A stretch of DNA of 64,000 nucleotides from assembly GCF_035573695.1 (NCBI RefSeq), contig NZ_CP121694.1, positions 782,501-846,500 on the forward strand, read 5' to 3'. This document shows positions 38,355-63,207 of the stretch, piece after piece. Each line of letters opens with the position of its first letter. The stretch's first letter is position 1. The DNA is from Metallumcola ferriviriculae (GTDB lineage Bacteria > Bacillota > JADQBR01). A program made the translations under genes and the position numbers. The notes under the pieces were generated by a model. It was not told where the DNA came from. It searched no databases and saw only the letters and a program-made list of their open reading frames with translations.

Positions 38355-38773
38355 ATGCGACAACCCTCCAATCGTGCAAGTCTAATAATCGGTTAGCTGC
38401 CTTCGGTTGGTTTTAAATACCAATATTTTTAAAAAAAAGGAAGTATTGCAGGGGAATTAGGACGGGCGAAAAAAGAGATAGAGAGGTAATGGGAAAATAT
38501 GCCTAATAAGGATGGTGAAATATGTACTCACACGGGCTTTATAAAATAAATGGTTTCTTTTCCTATTATCATTTTACTTGTTTGAAAAGGATGGTACATA
38601 TCATTTTCGGGTGAGGTGCAATGGCGGTGTCTCCTTGTATATTGAAAGATTAGGCAGCAGTTTTGTCTTTTAGTTGAAGCTAGTTATGGTCAAAAAACTT
38701 TTGTATTGACAATTTTTGAGTCGTTTCTAGTGAAAAGGGTTTGGCTTATTATTCATTTGGAAGGTGGTCTAAC
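38355..38773. other. Intergenic region before surface-protein gene
   Basis: 419 bases without a supported gene. A TTGACA at about 38707 could be the -35 of the downstream gene, although no good -10 is seen. GGTTAGC...GGTTTT weak hairpins occur near 38390. No repeat shared with other loci was noticed. Confidence 0.4.
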
Positions 38774-41407
38774 ATGGGAATAAAGAAAAAATTGTTAGGA
38801 TTGGCGGTTATTATAATACTTTCTATTTGGACAAGTGTAGGGGTGGAAGCAGCAGATGGACTGTTGCCTGTTGAGCACAGGTCAATTTATGCGGGTTCTG
38901 CAGTATCTTACTATATAACTGCTGGAGGTAAACTTTATGGTGCTGGTAGAAATACGCAAAATCAGTTGGGAAATGGTACCAAAATAGATAGCGCTACGCC
39001 TATCTTAATACTCGAGGATGCCGTTTTTGTTGAAGGTGGCCTCAAAAACTATGCTATAACTTCTAATGGTGACCTATACACTTGGGGAGTTGATCGTGAC
39101 GGTCCATTGGAACCAGCAATTAAGCCCCATAAGATACTCAGTAATGTTTCCTCAGTTTCTGAATGTGGGGGCAGAGCTGTTGCTGTTTCTAGAAAAGGAG
39201 AATTATACGAAATTGATTATTATGATAATACAAGGAAACTTATGGATAATGTTAAGTCAGCGTCCGTGGGATATAGTTTTACAGTTGTAGTAAAAAGGGA
39301 TGGAACAGTGTTGTTTTGGGAGGGTAGTCTAGAAAAGGGGACTGCTCAACCAAAGGAGGTTCTTGATAATGTCGTACACGTTGTTTCTGGGTCGGGCCAT
39401 ACTTTGGCATTGAAGAATGATGGGACATTATGGGCTTGGGGAAATAACTATGATGGGCAGGTAGGTGTCGATTCTCGATATGCTAGAAACGGGAAAACTC
39501 CAACAAAAATTATGGAGAACGTCAGATATATAGATGCAGTTAATGGTCCTTCGGATTCGGAAAAAAATGGCGAAAGTTCGTTAGCAATAAAGAATGATGG
39601 CAGCCTATGGATATGGGGGAAGCGTGCTGGAGGAGGCCCATTTGGTGATGATATGCGTATGGATGTGCCATACAAAGTAATGGATGGTGTACTGACAGCT
39701 TCAATTGGGTCACATCTGTTAGCTGTAAAAATTGATGGGTCGCTGTGGGCAATGGGTTATAATAATACCGGACAGTTTGGAAACGGACAAACGTATTGGG
39801 TTGATCAGCCGGTTAAGATAATGAGTGACGTTAAGGATATTGCTGCTTCTGAAACATACGGGATGGCTATAAAGAATGACGGTACGGTCTGGGCATGGGG
39901 AAAAATAAAGAATGCTTCGGATGGAGATCGGTGGAGAGTGTATCGTGGCTGGGATGATATACAAAATGAAAAGGATTTGATTTCGAATACTCCGGTTAGA
40001 GTCTTTGATTTTGACAATGCGATTGAAATTGCAGCTGCGCCTGAACACAGACTTGTTTTGTTGGAGGATGGTTCTCTTTGGGCGTGGGGAGATAATTACG
40101 CTAGTAAATTGGGAGACAATACGACTAAGGATAGTGCTAACCCCATCAAAGTTATGGATGAGGTTAAAAGCATTGAAGTAAATCGAAATAACTCTCTTGC
40201 ATTAAAGTATGACGGGACATTGTACTCTTGGGGTGAGATTGAAACCCTATCTGAGTATGCTTCGAAACCGCCTCAAAAAAAAGCTGATAATGTAGTAGCA
40301 TTTGACTCTATGTGGGATGGAATTATTTACGTTTCAGAGGATGGGGAAATTTACAGCAGTGTTCATGCTGGCGAAGCTAATCCTAAGGTTGAAAAGGATC
40401 TATATAATGGTGATAACATCTGGGTGGTGCCGACAAACAATACTGGTCAGCCCTATGTACTACCGACAAACGTTACTAAACTTTTGGGTAACAGATTAAC
40501 AGGGTTACATTATACCTACGCCTTAACTTCAGATGGAACGTTCTATGGTGCTAATGCAGTTTCGGATAAGTTTGATTCAGAGCAGCAACCAATAAAAATT
40601 ATGGATGACGTAAAGGATATATCCGGAATGAATCCATACATTGTAAAGAGTGATGGTACTTTATTTAGATACGAATATGGTGACCCCAATAAACCTATAC
40701 TCAGTAACATACATAAAATCGATACGGCATGGGAATCTGGATTAAAATTAGCACTAGACAATGATGGAAACGTATATGCTTGGGGAGGTAACACTTATGG
40801 ACAAGTAGGAAATGGTACTCAATCATTTTATGCGGAACCAGTGCAGCTTCGAAACGGAATAATGGTCCCGAAAGATGAATACTCCCCTTCCCCCTGGGCT
40901 GTAGGTGAGATAGAGAAAGGGAAACAGTACAATCTTGTGACAGAAAAGGTACTGTCTTCATACCAGCGAGACATTACCAGAGAAGAATTCTGTGAAATTG
41001 TCGTTAAACTCTATGAAGCCTTGGCAGGAAAAACAGTCGCAGAGTCTTTAGATAGTAATTTTAGTGACACTAATAATCAGGAGATTTTAAAAGCTAACTC
41101 CCTGGGTATTGTCAAAGGTATCAGTGAAACTGAGTTTGCCCCATACGCTATCATTACAAGAGAGCAGATTGCAGTAATGTTTTACCGAACATTAATAGCA
41201 TTAGACCCTTCTCTGGCTAAAGAAAAATGGGAAGTAAATTTTGCCGACAAAAGTGAAATATCCAGTTGGGCACTTGATGCGATAGGTTTTATGAACGCCA
41301 ATGGGATTTTGGGCGGAATGGGAAACAACAAGGTTATTCCTAAAGGCAATGCCACCAGAGAGCAAGCTATCGCCCTTATTGTTCGTATTTTTGAGAAATT
41401 TAATTAG
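38774..41407 (+). CDS. Secreted RCC1-repeat surface protein with SLH domains
   Basis: 877-aa protein. ATG at 38774 (AAGGTGG upstream) opens a signal peptide (KKKLLGLAVIIILSIWTS ... VEAA). Residues ~40-710 carry many RCC1/BNR-like blade repeats of the LKNDGTLWAWGNNYDGQVG type. The C-terminal ~150 residues contain SLH modules (DITREEFCEIVVKLYEAL; ANSLGIVKGISETEFAPYA; WALDAIGFMNANGILGGMG) that anchor proteins to secondary cell-wall polymers. It is likely exported and displayed on the surface, with the propeller acting in binding. Confidence 0.9.
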   Translation: MGIKKKLLGLAVIIILSIWTSVGVEAADGLLPVEHRSIYAGSAVSYYITAGGKLYGAGRNTQNQLGNGTKIDSATPILILEDAVFVEGGLKNYAITSNGDLYTWGVDRDGPLEPAIKPHKILSNVSSVSECGGRAVAVSRKGELYEIDYYDNTRKLMDNVKSASVGYSFTVVVKRDGTVLFWEGSLEKGTAQPKEVLDNVVHVVSGSGHTLALKNDGTLWAWGNNYDGQVGVDSRYARNGKTPTKIMENVRYIDAVNGPSDSEKNGESSLAIKNDGSLWIWGKRAGGGPFGDDMRMDVPYKVMDGVLTASIGSHLLAVKIDGSLWAMGYNNTGQFGNGQTYWVDQPVKIMSDVKDIAASETYGMAIKNDGTVWAWGKIKNASDGDRWRVYRGWDDIQNEKDLISNTPVRVFDFDNAIEIAAAPEHRLVLLEDGSLWAWGDNYASKLGDNTTKDSANPIKVMDEVKSIEVNRNNSLALKYDGTLYSWGEIETLSEYASKPPQKKADNVVAFDSMWDGIIYVSEDGEIYSSVHAGEANPKVEKDLYNGDNIWVVPTNNTGQPYVLPTNVTKLLGNRLTGLHYTYALTSDGTFYGANAVSDKFDSEQQPIKIMDDVKDISGMNPYIVKSDGTLFRYEYGDPNKPILSNIHKIDTAWESGLKLALDNDGNVYAWGGNTYGQVGNGTQSFYAEPVQLRNGIMVPKDEYSPSPWAVGEIEKGKQYNLVTEKVLSSYQRDITREEFCEIVVKLYEALAGKTVAESLDSNFSDTNNQEILKANSLGIVKGISETEFAPYAIITREQIAVMFYRTLIALDPSLAKEKWEVNFADKSEISSWALDAIGFMNANGILGGMGNNKVIPKGNATREQAIALIVRIFEKFN

Positions 41408-41537
41408 GGTATATGGCAAATAATTAGGAGGGTGAAGTTTACCCGAGTGAATATGTCGAATAGTTATTTGATATCCCATAAGGTGAACCTGATATAATAA
41501 ACGGCAGGAAAACTGTCAGAAAGAAGGTTCATACAAA

Positions 41538-41873
41538 ATGGGAAGACGAAAATTTACAGCCGAATTCAAAACTAAAATCGTACTGGAGCTACTCAAAGAA
41601 GAAAAACAGATCGGCGAACTAGCAGCCGAACATGAGTTAAGCCCCAATCAACTGCGCAACTGGAAAAAAGATTTTTTAGAGAATGCACCACAGGTGTTCT
41701 CACAAAGCAAGCAAGAAAAAGAGCTTCGTGCCCAAGAAAAAGCTTTGGACGAAGAAAGAACCGAATTAATGGCAAAAGTCGGTCAACTCACTATTGAGAA
41801 TGACTGGCTCAAAAAAAAATCTAAAGAAGTTCTTGGGGTCGACTGGGAGAATAAGTCTGGTTTCAAAAAATAA
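41538..41873 (+). CDS. IS3 transposase OrfA
   Basis: 111-aa DNA-binding subunit: HTH KFTAEFKTKIVLELLKEEKQ and LSPNQLRNWKKDFL, then a leucine-zipper-like helix (EKALDEERTELMAKVGQLTI). AAAGAAGG precedes ATG. It ends at an A-rich stretch overlapping orfB. Confidence 0.92.
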   Translation: MGRRKFTAEFKTKIVLELLKEEKQIGELAAEHELSPNQLRNWKKDFLENAPQVFSQSKQEKELRAQEKALDEERTELMAKVGQLTIENDWLKKKSKEVLGVDWENKSGFKK

Positions 41874-42681
41874 CAAACTGCCGGTTAATCGGCAATGCCA
41901 GTTACTTGAGATCAATAGAACCAGTTTTTATTACACACCTAAAGAACCTGACAGAGAGCGCGAAAATATGATTAAAAACAGGCTTGATTACTGGCATACC
42001 AAGATGCCATATCTAGGGGTTAGGAAGCTTCGCAAAAAGCTACAGAATGAAGACCACATTAAGGTTGGCCGTAAGTTAATTAAACGCTATATGGACGAAA
42101 TGGGAATATATGCGGTCTATCCTAAACCCAACCTGTCAAAGCGTAATAAGCAGCACAAAATCTATCCTTACCTGTTAAGAAACCTAGATATTAATCGGGC
42201 AAACCAGGTTTGGGCCATTGACATTACCTACATTAAGATGGGCAGAAGTCATATGTATCTAACAGCCGTCATCGACTGGTATAGTCGTTACATAGTAGGC
42301 TGGGAACTATCAGATACTTTGGACACCGCACCGGTGTTAGCAGCAGTTAAAGAAGCTATCAACAGATACGGCACGCCGGAAATTATCAACAGCGATCAGG
42401 GGTCTCAGTTCACAAGCGCTGATTACACAGAATATTTAAAGAGCGTGAACATCAGACAAAGCATGGACGGCAAGGCCCGTTGGATTGATAATGTTATCAT
42501 AGAGCGATGGTTTAGAAGTCTAAAAACCGAACAAATCTACACACATGAATATCTAACACCTAGAGACCTAAGGATCGGTATTAGAGAATATATCCAAGAA
42601 TATAATATAGAACGACCACATCAAACCCATGACTACCTAACTCCTCAAGAAGTCTATCTGGGGATAAGCAAGGCAGCTTAA
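41794..42681 (+). CDS. IS3 transposase OrfB (DDE integrase)
   Basis: 295-aa open frame with an N-terminal HTH_21 region (RENMIKNRLDYWHTKMPYLG) and rve catalytic core: WAIDITYIKMG (first D), INSDQGSQFTSADY (second D) and NVIIERWFRSLKTE (E). TTG at 41794 opens the frame; conserved sequence starts around residue 25. It lies in the +1 frame relative to orfA, which contains a run of nine A bases, rather than in the usual -1 frame. Confidence 0.92.
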   Translation: MRMTGSKKNLKKFLGSTGRISLVSKNNKLPVNRQCQLLEINRTSFYYTPKEPDRERENMIKNRLDYWHTKMPYLGVRKLRKKLQNEDHIKVGRKLIKRYMDEMGIYAVYPKPNLSKRNKQHKIYPYLLRNLDINRANQVWAIDITYIKMGRSHMYLTAVIDWYSRYIVGWELSDTLDTAPVLAAVKEAINRYGTPEIINSDQGSQFTSADYTEYLKSVNIRQSMDGKARWIDNVIIERWFRSLKTEQIYTHEYLTPRDLRIGIREYIQEYNIERPHQTHDYLTPQEVYLGISKAA

Positions 42682-42772
42682 TAATAGCAAGACATATCGT
42701 ATATCAAAGTCAAGTAGGCTGATGGATAGTGCCGCCATGTGGACAACCCTCCGCTACGCTCCAGGTTGACGC

Positions 42773-42822
42773 ACAAGGCTTGGACAACAAAAACCGTGTT
42801 GTCCACACTCTCCACAGCCTCG
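42773..42822 (+). repeat. 50-bp repeat, copy 1
   Basis: Identical to 58179-58228 and 63022-63071. It contains a TGGACAAC/GTTGTCCA 8-bp stem with a 9-base loop. This copy lies in the 3' non-coding part of IS3 copy A. Confidence 0.8.
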
Positions 42823-42965
42823 GCGACTGGTCTAAAGTTTACGACGACGATAAAATCATTTCAAAAGAGGCAACTAATGTAAGCGTCAAACCATACCCAC
42901 GTTGTTTCCTTAGTCCGGCTGTGTCATAATCTTCCTCAAAGATCCTAAGAGAGGAAGATTTTACT

Positions 42966-43280
42966 GTGACAAGAGCAGAACTAAGAAAACTATGGGAAGA
43001 ACGGGTATCCGCCTTTAAAGCCAGCGGTCAGAGTGCCAATGCCTGGTGCAGAGATCATGACTTAAAGCCCAACCAGTTACATTACTGGCGTAAAAAACTT
43101 GAACCCAAAGAAGCTGCCGAAACACTATCGTCTAAATGGCTACCGCTAGAAATAAGCGATAAGTCCTATGAAGAAAACAACCTTTTCATAACGGTAGGGC
43201 AAGCTACTGTAGAAGTAAAGCCAGGGTTTGACCCGGCACTTCTTTTAGAAGTGGTGAGGACCTTAAAAGCATTATGCTAA
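42966..43280 (+). CDS. tnpA: IS66 TnpA
   Basis: 104-aa IS66 accessory protein; TRAELRKLWEERVSAFKASG and DHDLKPNQLHYWRKKLEP are typical of the IS66 OrfA DNA-binding HTH. GTG start after GAGGAAG. It overlaps tnpB by 7 bases. Confidence 0.9.
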   Translation: MTRAELRKLWEERVSAFKASGQSANAWCRDHDLKPNQLHYWRKKLEPKEAAETLSSKWLPLEISDKSYEENNLFITVGQATVEVKPGFDPALLLEVVRTLKALC

Positions 43281-43630
43281 ACGATGCCAGTGTAGAGAGA
43301 GTATATCTCGCCTGTGGCAGCACAGATTTACGTAAATCCATTGACGGGTTAGCTGTCCTGGTCAAAGAAGGATTTGAACTAGATCCCTTCTCTCCGTATC
43401 TCTTTGTTTTCTGCAATCGCAAACGCGACAAGCTTAAGATTTTGCAGTGGGAGCACAATGGTTTCTGGCTTCATTACCGCCGCCTGGAAAAAGGCAAATT
43501 TCAATGGCCGGCAGACAGAGAATTTACACCTTTAAAGATTAGCCGACGTGAGTTACGGTGGCTTTTAGATGGACTGCCTATTCAGCAGCGTCAGGCTCAC
43601 CCCAAAGTTACAGCACGAACGGTGTTATGA
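43274..43630 (+). CDS. tnpB: IS66 TnpB (Orf2)
   Basis: 118-aa IS66 Orf2: VYLACGSTDLRKSIDGLAVL, FVFCNRKRDKLKILQWEHNG and FWLHYRRLEKGKFQWP are diagnostic. Its role in transposition is required but biochemically undefined. It lies between tnpA and tnpC in the usual order. Confidence 0.93.
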   Translation: MLNDASVERVYLACGSTDLRKSIDGLAVLVKEGFELDPFSPYLFVFCNRKRDKLKILQWEHNGFWLHYRRLEKGKFQWPADREFTPLKISRRELRWLLDGLPIQQRQAHPKVTARTVL

Positions 43631-43700
43631 CCTAAAATAAATCATGCTTTAAGCCTTGATTTTAAAGGGTTTTAAAGGGTTTTTGTCGAATCTATATACT

Positions 43701-44675
43701 ATGGATAATATAGCTAAAACTAACGAAGAACTTCAAAATAAATGCAGTCAATTAGAGCAGCAAAACGCTGAACTTACTGCCAAACTTAAATGGTATGAAG
43801 AGCAGTATCGCTTAAGCCAAAAAAAGCAGTTCGGAGCTTCCAGCGAAAAGTCTGATCCCAATCAGTTGAATCTTTTTAATGAGGCCGAGGTAGAGAGTAA
43901 ACCTCCTAAACCTGAACCAACCATGGAGGAAATCACCTACCGTCGCCAAAAGAAACAGGGACAGCGTGAAGAACTTTTAAAAGAGCTGCCGGTGGAAACA
44001 ATTGAGTATCGCTTGCCTGCCGAAGAACAGATATGCTCGTGCTGTGGCGAAAACTTGCATGAAATGAGCACAGAAGTTAGAAAAGAGCTTAAAGTCATTC
44101 CGGCTCAAGTCAGTGTCGTTGAACACGTGCGTCATGTCTATGCTTGTCGCCGCTGTGAAGAAGAGGAGATTAAGACACCTGTTGTAACAGCACCTATGCC
44201 TCAACCGGTGCTTGCGAAAAGCTTAGTATCCCCTTCAGTAATGGCCCACATCATGACACAAAAATATGTAGAGGGTATGCCCCTCTATCGGCAAGAGCAG
44301 CAACTGACCCGTCTTGGAGTAGGCCTGTCCCGGCAGACCTTGGCCAATTGGATGCTCCATGGTGCCGAGAGGTGGCTTTACCCACTTCATAAGAGAATGC
44401 ATGAAATTCTCATAAAGCAGGACATCCTGCACGCCGATGAGACCACACTGCAGGTACTGCGTGAACCAAACAGACCGGCAGAAAGTACTTCCTACATGTG
44501 GCTTTACCGCACCGGGCGGGAAGGCCCGCCGATAGTACTTTACGATTATCAGACCACCCGGGCAAGTAAACATCCCCGTAAGTTTTTGTCCGATTTTAAA
44601 GGCTATCTGCATGTAGATGGCTATGCCGGTTACAATGGACTATCGGATATCACTTTGGTCGGGTGTTGGGCTCAT
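43701..44675 (+). pseudogene. tnpC: IS66 TnpC transposase, 5' part (interrupted)
   Basis: N-terminal ~325 residues of the IS66 DDE transposase: coiled coil ([20 protein letters not shown]), zinc-ribbon [11 protein letters not shown]...CRRCEEEE, and the catalytic [13 protein letters not shown] (first D) and [12 protein letters not shown] (second D). Translation is diverted at CWAH by the RIT element and stops at 44723. ATG at 43701 is preferred; a TTG at 43656 extends the frame by 15 residues. Joining 44675 to 48167 restores one open frame. Confidence 0.9.
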
Positions 44676-44705
44676 TATCCAAGAAATATGATTATCCGAG
44701 AAGAA
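44669..44705 (+). repeat. RIT left terminal inverted repeat, 37 bp
   Basis: Perfect reverse complement of 48103-48139. Its inner GATTATCCGAGAA (44690-44702) is repeated in inverted form as TTCTCGGATAATC at 44745-44757, giving an extra putative recombinase-binding site. Confidence 0.92.
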
Positions 44706-44771
44706 ACACTAAAAACCGCATAAGCCTAGGAGATTCTTTTCTTTTTCTCGGATAATCTAAATCTAACTTGA

Positions 44772-45797
44772 CTAAACGTTTAAGAAATCTGGCATTTCAT
44801 TTTTCTTTCTGGATTCTTTCATTGCCTCAGAATCCGGGGAGAACCATTTCTCATTCCATTCTTTCAAGTGCTTGTCCACTGTGTTCTGTGACAATTCCGC
44901 ATATATCTGCGTTGTTTGGAGTGATGCATGCCCAAGGAAATTTTTTATGACTACAATTGGAACACCCGCCTCCAACATATGGCTTGCAGTTGAGTGCCTC
45001 ATGGAATGCGGCGGATAACTGTCTTCTCTAAATAAAGCCAGATTCTCTGCCTTAGCCTGTCGTACGTATTTCTTAAAGATACCTTCAACGCAAGAAACAG
45101 CCATTTGTTCATGGGTTTGACTTGAAAAAACATGCTTGTCAGGTTTTGAACTCAGTCGCCGGTGATATATATATTTCTGCAGCATCTTCGCACAGTTGTC
45201 CGGAATGCCAATGCGCCTTGATTTTCCACCTTTCCCTTTAATGTTCAGGGTGGCTCCTTTCATATTGAATTGTATGCTTCCTACCGTCAGGTCGCAGATT
45301 TCTTGGGCCCTTGCCCCACTTGCATACATTAAGCTAAGTAGCACTTTATCCCTGAGGCCGATATCCTTACTGTCGTTAGGTAAACGAAGAAGTATCGAAA
45401 CTTCCTGCACTGATAACACCGCACGTTGCTTCTTTTGGACTTTTTTCATAGGGATTTTAATAACACCGCTCCGAAATACGGATGCAGCAGCAAAATCCCG
45501 GTTCTGAGCATACTCAGAAAAAGAAATGATTGCTGACAGTCTCTGGTTTTTCGTTGATGCGCTACAGCCCCGGTCTTTCTCAATCCAGTCAAGAAATTCT
45601 GTCAGGGTGCTGAAGTCTAGCTGCTCAAAGGCTATCTTATCGGCGGAAATCCCTTTCTTGGAATACATGAACTCCAGCAGCAGCCGGAAAGCATATTTAT
45701 ATGAAGTAACCGTATTAGGGCTGGCCCCGACTGAACGGGGCATGTAGTTTGTAATATAACTGTTCAGTAACTCCAGAAATTTCGAAGGTTTATTCAT
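44772..45797 (-). CDS. RIT tyrosine recombinase C (third of trio)
   Basis: 341-aa phage-integrase-family recombinase with an N-terminal SAM-like core-binding domain. The catalytic residues are visible: R in YASGARAQEICDL, H-x-x-R in PPHSMRHSTASH, H in FLGHASLQTT, and the nucleophile Tyr in QIYAEL. It overlaps the middle gene by 8 bases and is the last cistron of the minus-strand trio. Confidence 0.93.
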   Translation of the reverse strand: MNKPSKFLELLNSYITNYMPRSVGASPNTVTSYKYAFRLLLEFMYSKKGISADKIAFEQLDFSTLTEFLDWIEKDRGCSASTKNQRLSAIISFSEYAQNRDFAAASVFRSGVIKIPMKKVQKKQRAVLSVQEVSILLRLPNDSKDIGLRDKVLLSLMYASGARAQEICDLTVGSIQFNMKGATLNIKGKGGKSRRIGIPDNCAKMLQKYIYHRRLSSKPDKHVFSSQTHEQMAVSCVEGIFKKYVRQAKAENLALFREDSYPPHSMRHSTASHMLEAGVPIVVIKNFLGHASLQTTQIYAELSQNTVDKHLKEWNEKWFSPDSEAMKESRKKNEMPDFLNV

Positions 45798-46773
45798 CGA
45801 AATTCACCTCCGGAAATATCTGGGCAGTGTATCCATCAAACAGTTCCATTGCATCCGGAAACATCTCACTGCTGAATTTCAGGTATTTTTCTGTTTCTTT
45901 CAGACTGTCATGTCCCAGATAGATGGAAAGGTACGGAACAATGTCATCAATCCTGCGGCCAGCTTTCTCTGCATTGGCAAAAGACTTAAATACAAACACA
46001 TGCCTAAGGCAATGAAGGCAGGGACCCCTTTGATGTTTCTTTCTTCCAGGAAGGAATATATTACCTTGTTCCAGTATGAAATTGAACTTATGCTGAGCAT
46101 TATGTACTGTCACTGGTTCCATCGGATCAAATGTGGGAAAAAGATATGCTTCCGGATATCCGATCATCCCCATAGCCATGCAGTATTGCCCAAGGATCTT
46201 TGTCAACGTGGGATGCATAGGAACAAGCCTTTGCTTGTCACCTTTAGTATATTTCAGTGTCAGCACACCGATATCAAAATCTACATCTTTCATTTTTAAT
46301 AAAAGTGTCTCACCGATGCGAAGCCCGCATCCACACATGAGGCGCAGAATCATTGGAAACTCCACATGAATGAGAGTATTCTTACGCGGTTTCCCCATCT
46401 GTAGGGTATCTGCAATGGAAAATATAAGCTTCATCTCGTCGTCCAAAAATATATACGGAACGTAATCGTCACTGACCCTTGGAATCGGTGGAATATAAGC
46501 ATTAACACCATAACCCTTAAGCTGTGTTAGAAAGATTCTGACAACAATCACCATGTTGGCAATGGAACTGCTCTTTCCTGTAAGGGTACCGCTCCAGCCG
46601 GTTACCTGCTCTTCTGTAAGATCTTTGTCGTCACATTTTATAGAGCAGAGGTATTCGTCGAATAACTTAAGTGTGTGCCGGTCGTGGTCATAGGCACTTT
46701 TGCTTTTTGATGATTTCCGAAGTGCCAAGAACCCAGCAATCTCATCTTGCAGTACACTCTTGAAGTGGATCAT
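45790..46773 (-). CDS. RIT tyrosine recombinase B (second of trio)
   Basis: 327-aa tyrosine recombinase. Catalytic positions: R in CGCGLRIGETLLL, H-x-x-R in CLHCLRHVFVF, H in LGHDSLKET and Tyr in EKYLKFS. It overlaps ritA by 4 bases (ATGA) and ritC by 8 bases, so the three proteins are probably made in fixed ratio. Confidence 0.92.
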   Translation of the reverse strand: MIHFKSVLQDEIAGFLALRKSSKSKSAYDHDRHTLKLFDEYLCSIKCDDKDLTEEQVTGWSGTLTGKSSSIANMVIVVRIFLTQLKGYGVNAYIPPIPRVSDDYVPYIFLDDEMKLIFSIADTLQMGKPRKNTLIHVEFPMILRLMCGCGLRIGETLLLKMKDVDFDIGVLTLKYTKGDKQRLVPMHPTLTKILGQYCMAMGMIGYPEAYLFPTFDPMEPVTVHNAQHKFNFILEQGNIFLPGRKKHQRGPCLHCLRHVFVFKSFANAEKAGRRIDDIVPYLSIYLGHDSLKETEKYLKFSSEMFPDAMELFDGYTAQIFPEVNFDE

Positions 46774-48005
46774 GACTGTCCACCTCCATCAAGAAATGCT
46801 TTAAATGAGCCCGCCGGTTCTGGGACTTCTATTGCACATTCACGGAGCTTTTCTATGTTAAGCTTTGCATAATGCTTTATTGCGTCAGGATCAGAATGCC
46901 CGAGGATGGTCCTGACAGCTTCATATGGAACATTATCATTAACCATTGAACTGGCCAATGATGACCTAAATGCATGGGGGCCGTGTTTCTTTCCTGACAT
47001 ATCAATACTGGCCAAACAAAAGTACTTTGATGTCGCAAAACGAAGGACAGAAGTGGTGATTCCCTGATAGGGCGCTTTATGGCGCAGGAATACCGTCTTG
47101 CTTGCCACTCTGGGACGTACATTGTTAATGTAATCAGCCAGCGCTTTTCCGACTTCCGGCAGCATGGGGAGATGTAACATTTCTCCGTTTTTTTGCTGTT
47201 TAAAGCAGATCTCTTCATGCTCGAAATCCAGCTCGTATAGAGACAGTTTTGCGATATCCCCGGATCTCATACCAAGTCTTGTCGCCAAGAGCAGCATTGC
47301 ATAATCCCTCTTGCCAACATCGCTCATGCGATTGATGGCTGCTTCGAATCTAAGGATATCTTCTTCACTATAGGTTACTGGTATATCCATCGACCGCCTG
47401 TAGCGTGGAACAAGTGTAGAAAGGTCTGACTTGGTGGTTCCCCTGATACTTAAAAATTTCAAGAAGACCATGACCACGGCCAAACCATCCTTGTTTTCGA
47501 CTGCCAGGCATGCTCTAGTAACATAAGACGCGTTCAAAGATTGAATGTCCGGGCATCCAAATGTAATGCATTCTCTTAGGAAACTGCGAATAAATCGCTT
47601 CTTTGACTCAATAGTGATATCTTTGTTGCCAGCTCCGGCACACTCCGTTGCATACATTCCCAACGCATGTTCGTAATTACTGGGCAATAGAGTAATTTTA
47701 TGTTTCTGCTGAATCCGATATTCCATGCCGGAATAAAAGTCATTGAGCCTCCGGATTGCCGTAAACATAGCCTTTTGCCGTGCATCCTCTAATTCATTCT
47801 CTACAAGATAGGTTTCATAGTACTGCATGCCGATTTCAGGAGTATAAGCATCGATACCATGCTCAATCATAAATGGTTCAATTTTCCTAAGTGTCCGGCG
47901 ATAGTTGACTAGCGTCAACTCAGTATAAGACTTGTCCTCAAGATCGTGAAGCAATTCGTCAAGCAAGTCTCCAAATGATAGATTTCTAATTTCTTCTTGA
48001 TTCAT
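46770..48005 (-). CDS. RIT tyrosine recombinase A (first of trio)
   Basis: 411-aa tyrosine recombinase. Catalytic positions: R in ATRLGMRSGDIAKL, H-x-x-R in GPHAFRSSLASS, H in LGHSDPDA and Tyr in KHYAKLN. AGGGAGGTG precedes the ATG. It is first in the minus-strand operon; the promoter probably lies in the ~100 bases between its start and the right inverted repeat. Confidence 0.93.
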   Translation of the reverse strand: MNQEEIRNLSFGDLLDELLHDLEDKSYTELTLVNYRRTLRKIEPFMIEHGIDAYTPEIGMQYYETYLVENELEDARQKAMFTAIRRLNDFYSGMEYRIQQKHKITLLPSNYEHALGMYATECAGAGNKDITIESKKRFIRSFLRECITFGCPDIQSLNASYVTRACLAVENKDGLAVVMVFLKFLSIRGTTKSDLSTLVPRYRRSMDIPVTYSEEDILRFEAAINRMSDVGKRDYAMLLLATRLGMRSGDIAKLSLYELDFEHEEICFKQQKNGEMLHLPMLPEVGKALADYINNVRPRVASKTVFLRHKAPYQGITTSVLRFATSKYFCLASIDMSGKKHGPHAFRSSLASSMVNDNVPYEAVRTILGHSDPDAIKHYAKLNIEKLRECAIEVPEPAGSFKAFLDGGGQS

Positions 48006-48102
48006 AACAACACCTCCCTAGATTTATAATTCCATTCTAAAGGAGATGATCATTATCAGAGAAGATGTCAGATGAAGAGTGTATTTATGCTGCTTTCAGA
48101 TA

Positions 48103-48139
48103 TTCTTCTCGGATAATCATATTTCTTGGATAATGAGCC
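48103..48139 (-). repeat. RIT right terminal inverted repeat, 37 bp
   Basis: Perfect reverse complement of 44669-44705. It is followed by a further 27 bases to the GGCTCAT at the restored tnpC junction; these can fold into the ATGAGCCTTAT hairpin. Confidence 0.92.
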
Positions 48140-48166
48140 TTATTCGAGAAGTAAGATAAGGCTCAT

Positions 48167-48748
48167 GCTAGACGTAAATTTGATGCGGCATTAAACGCCC
48201 TGCCGGCTGATAAACGGGATAAAGATGTAGTCGCCAAAGAGGGCTTAGATTTTTGCAACCAACTCTTTGCCATTGAACGCGAACTACAAGATTCTACATT
48301 CAAAGAACGATACGAAATCCGGTTACAGCGCAGCCAGCCGGTGTTGGATGCTTTTTTGGCATGGCTAAAATACCATAAGCCACGAGTTCTTCCCAAAAGT
48401 GCCTTTGGCCAGGCTATTAACTACTGCCTGAACCAATGGGATCGGTTAAAAGTCTTTTTACAAGATGGCCGCTTAGAAATTGATAATAACCGCAGCGAAC
48501 GCTCCATCAAGCCTTTTGTTATAGGCAGAAAAAATTGGCTATTCAGTAATACTCCAAAGGGAGCTAATGCTAGTGCAACGATCTATAGCATCGTGGAAAC
48601 TGCTAAAGAAAATGGATTAAATCCATTCGTTTATCTCCAGTATCTCTTTGAAAAACTTCCTAATATGGATATCGAAGATGAGAGTGCTATTGATGAGCTG
48701 CTTCCCTGGTCTGATGCTTTGCCTTCAGAGTGTCAGGTTAAAAAATAA
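48167..48748 (+). pseudogene. tnpC: IS66 TnpC transposase, 3' part (interrupted)
   Basis: From ARRKFDAALNALPADKRDK through NRSERSIKPFVIGRKNWLFS (the catalytic Glu region of IS66) to the C-terminal IS66_C domain (PFVYLQYLFEKLPN). It continues in frame from the 5' part when the RIT element is removed; the joined length is about 518 residues, normal for TnpC. An in-frame ATG at 48341 exists, but there is no evidence it is used. Confidence 0.9.
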
Positions 48749-48804
48749 TTTTTACATTCTTGCCCCGCCTGTTGTTGTCAAGGTGGGGTTTATTTGACGC
48801 TTAC

Positions 48805-50529: not shown

Positions 50530-51762
50530 TCATCGATTCACCTTCCTTCTAGGCGTGTAGATTTGGTCGTTACGTAGCAGCGCATCGACCAGACGCACAA
50601 GTTTTCTTGCGGTTAAGACGAGGGCTCTTTTATGCTGGTGCTTAGGCACCTCATGATACTTCTTGTAGTAGTAAGCGCGAAACTCCGGTTCATAGTTTTT
50701 AACCGAGTTGGCAGCCTCAACCAGGTAAAAACGGAGATAACGATTACCAGACCGTATCATGTTAGTTTCATCAGCCGTAAACTTTCCCGACTGATGCTTA
50801 CTCCAAGTAAGGCCCGCATATTTAGCCAAGGAAGCTTGGTCTTTGAAACGATGAATATCACCGATTTCCGCCAAGATACCGGCACAGTAAACAGGGCCAA
50901 TACCGGGAATGGACTTTAAGGTATTAGGAATACCGGATAAAAGCCTTTCAATGGCTTTATCAAGCTGTTTGATTTGAGCTTTAATACTTCTGATAGTTTC
51001 AATGGGTGTTGCCATTAAGATATCGACTGAGTCTTCAACACATTTAGAAAGTCTGTAGGAAGATCGAGCAGCCTTTTGAATACATTTAGCAACCCCTTCA
51101 GGGTCAGAAAAGCGATTCTTACTTTTTTCTTTTAGGAAATCGGCAAGAACAGCAATATCCATAGCAGCAATTTCATCAAGGCTATATTTTTCAAGGAAGA
51201 GATCTATCATGGCGTTACCAAATACAGAGGATTCAACCTCAGACCTAAAAGCATTGCATTTAAAGAATAAGTGCTGTAAGAAATGCTGTTTTTCACGGGT
51301 AAGACTTTTGACCAAGTGATAGCGTGACCTTGTTAGTCTTTGCAGGGCAACATATTGTTCCTGCATGATCATGGACAAAGGGAGCCTGCCGAAGCGTAGA
51401 CGGTCGGCAATAATCCAGGCATCAATATCATCAGTCTTATCAAGGTCGACATAAGCATCTTTAAACCTTTTGATAAGCTTAGCATTAATAGTGTAGACCT
51501 TGGCCTGGCGCTTTTTAAGCTCTTTGTCTTCATTAAGGAACATGGCAGGATGCCAACTGTAGACAGAAGTGGACTCCATGCCAATCTGGATTTCCTGGGA
51601 GGAATGCTTGTCCGCCAAGGCAACGATTTGGTCACGTAAGAATTCTGAACCAGGAAGGTTATTGTCAACAGTAAAAGACTTTAAAACATCACCGTCCTGG
51701 TTCATAACACACACTTTTAAATCAATAGAACTAACGTCAATACCGATAAAAAATTTGTACAA
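50530..51762 (-). CDS. IS110-family transposase (DEDD recombinase)
   Basis: 410-aa transposase. The N-terminal RuvC-like DEDD domain starts FFIGIDVSSIDLKVCVMN and has ESTSVYSWHPA, DLDKTDDIDAWIIADRL. The C-terminal transposase_20 domain contains SIPGIGPVYCAGILAEIGD and LAKYAGLTWSKHQSG, with the conserved Ser region S-G-N-RYLRFYL. Intact. IS110 elements lack inverted repeats and are guided by a bridge RNA, which makes the upstream non-coding segment significant. Confidence 0.95.
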   Translation of the reverse strand: MYKFFIGIDVSSIDLKVCVMNQDGDVLKSFTVDNNLPGSEFLRDQIVALADKHSSQEIQIGMESTSVYSWHPAMFLNEDKELKKRQAKVYTINAKLIKRFKDAYVDLDKTDDIDAWIIADRLRFGRLPLSMIMQEQYVALQRLTRSRYHLVKSLTREKQHFLQHLFFKCNAFRSEVESSVFGNAMIDLFLEKYSLDEIAAMDIAVLADFLKEKSKNRFSDPEGVAKCIQKAARSSYRLSKCVEDSVDILMATPIETIRSIKAQIKQLDKAIERLLSGIPNTLKSIPGIGPVYCAGILAEIGDIHRFKDQASLAKYAGLTWSKHQSGKFTADETNMIRSGNRYLRFYLVEAANSVKNYEPEFRAYYYKKYHEVPKHQHKRALVLTARKLVRLVDALLRNDQIYTPRRKVNR

Positions 51763-61693: not shown

Positions 61694-61786
61694 TGTACCC
61701 ATGAATTCAGACAAAATTTTCGACAAACTAAGTGAACCTGATATAATAAACGGCAGGAAAACTGTCAGAAAGAAGGTTCATACAAA

Positions 61787-62122
61787 ATGGGAAGACGAAA
61801 ATTTACAGCCGAATTCAAAACTAAAATCGTACTGGAGCTACTCAAAGAAGAAAAACAGATCGGCGAACTAGCAGCCGAACATGAGTTAAGCCCCAATCAA
61901 CTGCGCAACTGGAAAAAAGATTTTTTAGAGAATGCACCACAGGTGTTCTCACAAAGCAAGCAAGAAAAAGAGCTTCGTGCCCAAGAAAAAGCTTTGGACG
62001 AAGAAAGAACCGAATTAATGGCAAAAGTCGGTCAACTCACTATTGAGAATGACTGGCTCAAAAAAAAATCTAAAGAAGTTCTTGGGGTCGACTGGGAGAA
62101 TAAGTCTGGTTTCAAAAAATAA
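61787..62122 (+). CDS. IS3 transposase OrfA (copy B)
   Basis: 111 aa, identical to the product of 41538-41873. HTH N-terminus and leucine-zipper-like helix intact. Confidence 0.92.
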   Translation: MGRRKFTAEFKTKIVLELLKEEKQIGELAAEHELSPNQLRNWKKDFLENAPQVFSQSKQEKELRAQEKALDEERTELMAKVGQLTIENDWLKKKSKEVLGVDWENKSGFKK

Positions 62123-62930
62123 CAAACTGCCGGTTAATCGGCAATGCCAGTTACTTGAGATCAATAGAACCAGTTTTTATTACACACCTAAAGAACCTGA
62201 CAGAGAGCGCGAAAATATGATTAAAAACAGGCTTGATTACTGGCATACCAAGATGCCATATCTAGGGGTTAGGAAGCTTCGCAAAAAGCTACAGAATGAA
62301 GACCACATTAAGGTTGGCCGTAAGTTAATTAAACGCTATATGGACGAAATGGGAATATATGCGGTCTATCCTAAACCCAACCTGTCAAAGCGTAATAAGC
62401 AGCACAAAATCTATCCTTACCTGTTAAGAAACCTAGATATTAATCGGGCAAACCAGGTTTGGGCCATTGACATTACCTACATTAAGATGGGCAGAAGTCA
62501 TATGTATCTAACAGCCGTCATCGACTGGTATAGTCGTTACATAGTAGGCTGGGAACTATCAGATACTTTGGACACCGCACCGGTGTTAGCAGCAGTTAAA
62601 GAAGCTATCAACAGATACGGCACGCCGGAAATTATCAACAGCGATCAGGGGTCTCAGTTCACAAGCGCTGATTACACAGAATATTTAAAGAGCGTGAACA
62701 TCAGACAAAGCATGGACGGCAAGGCCCGTTGGATTGATAATGTTATCATAGAGCGATGGTTTAGAAGTCTAAAAACCGAACAAATCTACACACATGAATA
62801 TCTAACACCTAGAGACCTAAGGATCGGTATTAGAGAATATATCCAAGAATATAATATAGAACGGCCACATCAAACCCATGACTACCTAACTCCTCAAGAA
62901 GTCTATCTGGGGATAAGCAAGGCAGCTTAA
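62043..62930 (+). CDS. IS3 transposase OrfB (copy B)
   Basis: 295 aa, identical to the product of 41794-42681; the single base difference at 62864 is silent. DDE motif intact, so this copy can supply transposase for both elements. Confidence 0.92.
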   Translation: MRMTGSKKNLKKFLGSTGRISLVSKNNKLPVNRQCQLLEINRTSFYYTPKEPDRERENMIKNRLDYWHTKMPYLGVRKLRKKLQNEDHIKVGRKLIKRYMDEMGIYAVYPKPNLSKRNKQHKIYPYLLRNLDINRANQVWAIDITYIKMGRSHMYLTAVIDWYSRYIVGWELSDTLDTAPVLAAVKEAINRYGTPEIINSDQGSQFTSADYTEYLKSVNIRQSMDGKARWIDNVIIERWFRSLKTEQIYTHEYLTPRDLRIGIREYIQEYNIERPHQTHDYLTPQEVYLGISKAA

Positions 62931-63021
62931 TAATAGCAAGACATATCGTATATCAAAGTCAAGTAGGCTGATGGATAGTGCCGCCATGTGGACAACCCTC
63001 CGCTACGCTCCAGGTTGACGC

Positions 63022-63071
63022 ACAAGGCTTGGACAACAAAAACCGTGTTGTCCACACTCTCCACAGCCTCG
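63022..63071 (+). repeat. 50-bp repeat, copy 3
   Basis: Copy inside the 3' non-coding part of IS3 copy B, identical to copies at 42773 and 58179. Confidence 0.8.
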
Positions 63072-63207
63072 GCGACTGGTCTAAAGTTTACGACGACGAT
63101 AAAATCATTTCAAAAGAGGCAACTAATAGCATCGTTATTGCTGCTACTAAATGGGAATATCTGGTTCACTTAGAAAATTAAAATTTCTGTCTTGACAAGG
63201 GGGACAC

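Follow-up and report, generated by a model that had tools for sequence, protein, structure and literature searches.

RIT (recombinase-in-trio) elements, known since 2009 (Van Houdt 2009/2012; Ricker 2013), are about 3.5 kb long and combine three overlapping, same-strand tyrosine-recombinase genes; their terminal inverted repeats are accompanied by an overlapping palindrome. Individual insertions have been described: for example, ritA1B1C1 lies in the tnpA of an IS66, radC holds two RITs (PMC2864759), and a further RIT lies in a Tn6049-type transposase, for which an "overlapping palindromic sequence" was noted and mobility was undemonstrated (PMC3414803). The ends, target and movement of these elements were left open in the literature, and their target specificity and empty site have been listed as "not tested" (PMC10214605). 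As to a general rule for RIT targets, only single cases were found in the literature searched; Ricker 2013 lay outside this search and an earlier partial statement is possible. The stretch analysed here, called the window, comprises 64,000 nucleotides of Metallumcola ferriviriculae (contig NZ_CP121694.1, positions 782,501 to 846,500) and contains a RIT element within the tnpC gene of an IS66-family insertion sequence (IS). This element belongs to a known kind, and its site is clean and confirmed. Its comparison with RITs from other genomes suggests that RITs aim, clade by clade, at conserved motifs in the genes of other mobile elements.

The interrupted IS66-family element (42879..48804, plus strand; TnpB_IS66 and DDE_Tnp_IS66 domains) is bounded by 26-nt inverted repeats (42879-42904 and 48779-48804, 81% identical) and measures 2,435 bp once the RIT is subtracted. 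Its tnpA (42966-43280) and tnpB (43274-43630; PF05717, 1.6e-39) are followed by a split tnpC. The 5' part (43701..44674, plus strand; PF03050 positions 1-161) ends with ...VGCWA and two bases of the H codon, and the 3' part (48166..48748, plus strand; PF03050/PF13817) starts at the third base of this codon, then reads ARRKF. Removal of the RIT with one core retained gives a single open tnpC of 518 aa, in which CWAH|ARRKF is restored and which aligns with uninterrupted homologues over its full length. The original prediction, made from the letters of the window, described an IS3 element next to an IS66 split by a RIT. All three elements were found at or near the positions it gave, and its claim that removal of the RIT restores the tnpC frame agrees with the open 518-aa join and with intact relatives, which read the same.

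The RIT body (44675..48133, minus strand) carries the arms TTATCCAAGAA and TTATCCGAGAA, 17 bp apart, at both ends, and the element is 3,491 bp long including one core, with 55-nt terminal inverted repeats (44669-44723 and 48085-48139, 89% identical). Three adjacent genes of the RitA, RitB and RitC types on the same strand, with 4-8 bp overlaps, lie between these repeats, as in known RITs (PMC3414803 for the overlaps). They encode tyrosine recombinases of 411 aa (ritA, 46770..48005, minus strand; Phage_integrase 1.8e-21), 327 aa (ritB, 45790..46773, minus strand; 7e-13) and 341 aa (ritC, 44772..45797, minus strand; 1.1e-35); ritA and ritB share 4 bp (ATGA), ritB and ritC share 8 bp. No gene of the Tfp/Srap or GinB/GinD type lies between the ends, which enclose these three genes only. 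HxxR boxes and a C-terminal Y are readable in all three translations, without alignment to a structure. The element is probably functional; its copy is single in its own genome.

Three copies of GGCTCA are present at the ends of this RIT. The far core (44669..44674, plus strand) is the target copy on the ritC side and the outer core (48160..48165, plus strand) the target copy on the ritA side, both read from the sequence and from alignment with relatives. The inner core (48134..48139, minus strand) is inverted and, as read from the sequence, lies 20 bp from the outer one; the segment in between (TTATTCGAGAAGTAAGATAA, 48140..48159) is made of two back-to-back arms. This third copy, which is key to the mechanism proposed below, was absent from the original prediction. 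The latter also took the retained core to be the 7-bp GGCTCAT: one copy does restore the frame, but the core is 6 bp, GGCTCA. A 7-bp core was rejected since the two sides of the related element L019 do not agree in their seventh base (GGCACA|T versus GGCACA|C), so that the T of the window is a chance match. The 6-bp length is deduced from this differing base together with the conserved register.

How general these ends are was examined in about 60 trios, taken from some plasmids and from 399 genomes belonging to the phylum. End-architecture counts refer to 41 non-redundant elements; plasmid RITs L076, L077, L079 and L141-L145 had no clean end pair and were excluded, as were L081, L106, L112, L119, L120 and L129, whose automatic end calls were judged unreliable. 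In two unrelated RIT families of the window's own genome, an extra inverted core is found 20 bp outside the first one, at one end. Read from the X flank, the common arrangement is outer core, 20 bp, inverted inner core and arm at one end, then arm, far core and Y flank at the other. Each end has two 10-bp arms, spaced by exactly 17 bp in all 82 ends of the 41 RITs, a duplication that may be linked to the two core-binding (CB) domains of RitA (PMC8138268). The distance between outer and inner core is 20 bp in 35 of the 41 elements, and an unconstrained scan gave mostly 20, or 22 in a one-base-shifted register. Because this end design is shared, the circle that we infer would carry a symmetric double attachment site, with two complete inverted core sites and six arms at its joint. 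Such a symmetric site with an asymmetric core should leave the orientation of the body free while fixing the palindrome on one side of a given target. The body orientations are indeed split 20:21 among the 41 RITs, and the palindrome side is constant in all target classes that have two or more members, which amounts to roughly 20 independent agreements. These classes are CWAH, HADE and TCKLN in IS66, Walker A and Walker B in IstB, the DDE KG(E) motif, the group II intron, the tyrosine recombinase HxxRH box and the amidoligase.

The empty site was sought among relatives. Intact IS66 was not found in the window's own genome, which has a single TnpB copy. Intact tnpC genes from elsewhere, 67-78% identical to the joined protein, read ...VGCWAHARRKF... 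(one reads CWAHARRGF) with no bases added or lost, and have GGGCYCA or GGGCACA at the core position. The CWAH-ARRK junction, named beforehand as the point on which the prediction would stand or fall, is thus the one present in intact relatives. Genome G113 contains both an intact IS66 (L152) and one interrupted by a RIT (L083); over 1,790 bp the two are 94.4% identical, and their match ends at the insertion site. Six related RITs (RitA 49-89% identical) each have at least one junction at the CWAH codons of an IS66 tnpC; they come from Dethiobacter, another Bacillota metagenome-assembled genome, Pelosinus, Propionispira and Anoxynatronum, plus L083 (RitA 49%), and only one side could be read at CWAH in L018 and L083. 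Rit proteins of the relatives are 74-94% identical to those of the window, whereas those of their IS66 hosts that were compared over long stretches share only 47-64% identity with the window host (47-51% for L018, L019 and L020, 64% for the 3' part of L023). The hosts being far more diverged than the Rit proteins, the insertions are therefore independent, which means that different IS66 elements were entered by the RIT on several occasions. CWAH insertions occur in both body orientations, and their cores vary (GGCTCA, GGCCCA, GGCACA and GGCGCA/GTCACA). The expectation that this site would inform RIT target choice proved right and holds more widely than the window alone could show, with six related RITs at the same codon position and other clades on other motifs. 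In L020 (2569-9336), one IS66 tnpC has received two RITs that belong to different clades, one at CWAH|ARR and the other 80 residues upstream, at HADE|TT.

Targets were counted by eye, with Pfam support for representatives (DDE_Tnp_IS66, TnpB_IS66, IstB, rve, RVT_1, AAA_22 and Phage_integrase). Of the RITs counted in this way, 41 lie in mobility genes. Those in IS66 TnpC lie at CWAH (7), HADE (2), FDNN (1) and TCKLN (2), and one more is in IS66 TnpB. The IS21 helper ATPase IstB is hit at Walker A (5) and Walker B (3), and IstA or related rve transposases at the KG(E) motif (7) and at YDN or YVDN (3). The remainder are found at the TPQGG motif of group II intron reverse transcriptases (3), at HxxRH or the catalytic Y of tyrosine recombinases (5), at WAVD of an IS3 transposase (1) and in an AAA_22 transposon-type ATPase (1). 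Other targets are amidoligase (2), DruA, YhcG, an HD-like protein and a putative helicase-like gene (1 each), and about eight sites are unassigned or one-sided (own-genome type 2, L085, L096, L098, L122, L124 and L125). When the flanks are joined exactly, the median open frame on the shorter side is 118 aa, versus 26-29 aa after shifts of 1-2 bases. On a RitA tree with 36 labelled rows in 17 classes, target labels change 17 times, close to the minimum of 16, as compared to at least 23 in 200 shuffles. The IS66 HADE and IstB Walker B insertions form sister clades with a common GAYGAR core. The type 2 RIT (L009, L010, L131) has TAGGGC as its insertion site, within a short conserved stretch that corresponds to no clear gene; an IS256 inverted repeat, a coding sequence and an RNA family were tried for the own-genome site (L009/L010), with no support and no Rfam match. 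About 525 bp are lost around the ritC end of L009.

A further clue comes from the cores themselves, which are not all identical in 19 of the 41 elements. Two pairs of copies, each pair from the same genome, lie in different genes with unalignable flanks: the bodies of L116 and L117 are 100% identical over 3,460 bp, and those of L107 and L108 are 99.9% identical. The outer, inner and far cores are GCCGCC, ACCCCC and TCCACC in L107, and ACCCCC, TCCACC and GCCGCC in L108; they are TAAAGG, TAAAGG and CAAGGG in L116, and TAAAGG, CAAGGG and TAAAGG in L117. In both pairs, the palindrome lies at opposite ends of the two partners. These core sets fit the predicted use of the alternative core, and the differences between near-identical copies suggest a memory of the donor site. 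Inner and outer cores are equal in six elements, inner and far cores in two, and only this 6:2 excess favours one polarity. Two other pairs show rearrangements. L011 and L012 belong to a duplicated transposon, with the same RIT oppositely oriented between near-identical flanks and an in-frame TAA in both ritA genes. L094 and L095, from one genome, are 100% identical over 4,044 bp of RIT and IstB N-terminal flank and differ beyond in their IstB C-terminal parts, as if flanks had been swapped by recombination between RIT copies.

The end architecture, exact target position, repeated independent insertion, match between clade and target, orientation rule and near-identical copies elsewhere are read directly from the DNA. 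A model built on them would add the circle, its excision, the polarity of strand exchange and the roles of the three proteins. The RIT of the window was very probably inserted by site-specific recombination at GGCTCA within the CWAH codons, through such a symmetric circle and towards the motif matched to its clade. The joint of the excised circle would read arm2-arm1-core'-[arm-arm, 20 bp]-core-arm1-arm2, that is GGATAATGAGCC-TTATTCGAGAAGTAAGATAA-GGCTCATTATCC for the window element, or the same with another core. Either inverted core could recombine with a matching 6-bp target core, so the body would enter in either orientation, but the side on which the 20-bp palindrome ends up would be constant for a given asymmetric target core. 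The 6 bp of the circle would stay at one junction and those of the target at the other, the unused core, retained internally, recording the donor site. One polarity fitting both pairs would be that the circle keeps the far core and recombines via the former inner core, which is left at the palindrome side, the 6 bp of the target being taken up at the far side. Each RIT clade would be matched to one conserved DNA motif, usually catalytic or highly conserved codons of a transposase, an IS helper ATPase, a group II intron reverse transcriptase or a tyrosine recombinase. The host gene would be inactivated, and precise excision would in principle restore it.

The seven elements at the same codon position could also stem from a single ancestral IS66::RIT composite, spread or inherited as a unit, in which case the shared site would be uninformative on target choice; nearly identical Tn::RIT composites at one place are known in Acidithiobacillus (PMC3414803). 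This is hardly credible here, the inherited composite being rejected by the divergence of hosts (47-64% identity) relative to Rit proteins (74-94%). Moreover, both orientations occur, the cores differ, and other clades have identical RITs in unrelated host genes. It is also very unlikely that RITs insert widely and that the copies in transposase genes are the tolerated ones, such genes being dispensable and repeated. Mobile-element genes do offer neutral landing places, RITs are also present in regions rich in mobile elements, and other genes of this type (amidoligase, DruA, YhcG) are targets too. Tolerance alone would, however, scatter insertions along the gene, whereas insertions in a given motif use the same codon, and the choice of motif goes with the RIT clade.

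Target choice might instead be a match to the carried 6-bp core only, with conserved motifs appearing through their invariant DNA. The core is the only sequence clearly common to element and target, the HADE and Walker B insertions of sister clades share GAYGAR in unrelated genes, and identical RITs occupy KG codons of several different transposases. But a given 6-mer is expected by chance roughly every 4 kb, from which many off-motif insertions would follow and none was seen, and the three cores of one element often differ, as described above; we regard this explanation as unlikely. Movement by copy-out, the donor being left in place as in strand-biased circularizing integrative elements (SEs) and GInts, is a possibility to be taken more seriously than that, although we still hold it to be doubtful compared with excision of a circle. 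The 6-bp spacer of SEs acts as fingerprint and footprint, with strand bias (PMC10214605), and several genomes hold multiple identical RIT copies. RITs are nevertheless devoid of the Tfp and Srap-type genes of SEs, and cut-and-paste behind a replication fork would also yield multiple copies.

Several points weigh against the circle and clade-motif model. Spacing and end calls come from a script that optimised a score into which the expected pattern had partly been written. RIT arms have no obvious counterpart in the target. The polarity of core inheritance is drawn from two pairs, and a mirror rule running in the opposite direction is also compatible with them. The inversion between L011 and L012 could result from RIT recombination or from homologous recombination between 91-bp repeats. 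Several targets were classed by motif reading rather than by Pfam, and of the elements whose ends could be read, about a quarter lie in amidoligase, DruA, YhcG or HD-type genes or in unassigned sites. Finally, the whole case, including circle, excision and insertion, is built from sequence.

Taken with these reservations, RITs look like probable hyperparasites, each lineage recognising one near-invariant mobile-element motif (transposase catalytic sites, IstB Walker motifs, intron TPQGG or tyrosine recombinase active-site boxes), with a symmetric double-core site that would keep a 6-bp record of the site occupied before. If lineages do track such invariant motifs, RITs would naturally suppress the spread of ISs and introns, and would offer a rare case of DNA targeting anchored in the codons of protein active sites, where the target cannot easily mutate away. 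The site rule, end architecture and donor-memory cores make RIT ends, target and movement testable.

The IS3-family unit of the window (41483..42878, plus strand; HTH_Tnp_1, PF01527; rve, PF00665) starts at 41483, as previously proposed, and abuts the IS66 exactly. Its orfA (41538-41873) and orfB (41794-42681), both on the plus strand, encode the HTH and rve domains in overlapping frames. It lies inside a 1,396-bp repeat found at seven other genome places at 98-100% identity (eight copies in all, seven at 100%), one of which is in the window at 61732-63127. Five other copies were read and have common outer flanks, tcgacaaactaa and agcatcgttatt, therefore these lie in a larger repeat; the copy at 41483 has a different left flank. 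No convincing pair of IS3 terminal inverted repeats was found, and position 42878 is the repeat end, which may not be the right end of the IS. Within it, 42702-42829 corresponds to a shorter dispersed repeat, 84-96% identical in four other places and with the inverted repeat TGTGGACAAC...GTTGTCCACA, which looks like a small non-coding mobile repeat; two of these four copies border or lie close to the RIT-bearing transposons L011/L012. No 8-bp target duplication flanks the IS66 (caactaat versus ttagatac), so the older events cannot be put in order, and the IS66 edge beside the IS3 unit is probably rearranged. Just left of the stacked elements, 38741-41407 encodes an 888-aa protein with apparent RCC1-type repeats and S-layer-homology domains, as judged by eye. 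By the same approach, an open reading frame at 50530-51762 (minus strand) resembles an IS110-type transposase.

The double-core joint, the 6-bp core, the 17- and 20-bp spacings, the orientation rule and clade-motif targeting were not found in the literature searched, again without Ricker 2013. The host has the tnpA, tnpB and tnpC genes and the GTAAGCG inverted repeats of the known IS66 family, but it differs from a typical member in being interrupted and in the 8-bp target duplication, which was not seen. Tn916-type elements carry donor-derived 6-bp coupling sequences with heteroduplex resolution, and their two end cores may be different. They resemble RITs in carrying 6-bp donor sequences along, and are unlike them in their other recombinase arrangement, their low target specificity and the lack of an internal third core. 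SEs and GInts likewise share with RITs several tyrosine recombinases per operon and a 6-bp fingerprint of the previous site (PMC10214605). They differ by their four conserved genes, including the non-recombinase Tfp and Srap, and by a single attS in place of the double inverted core of RITs.

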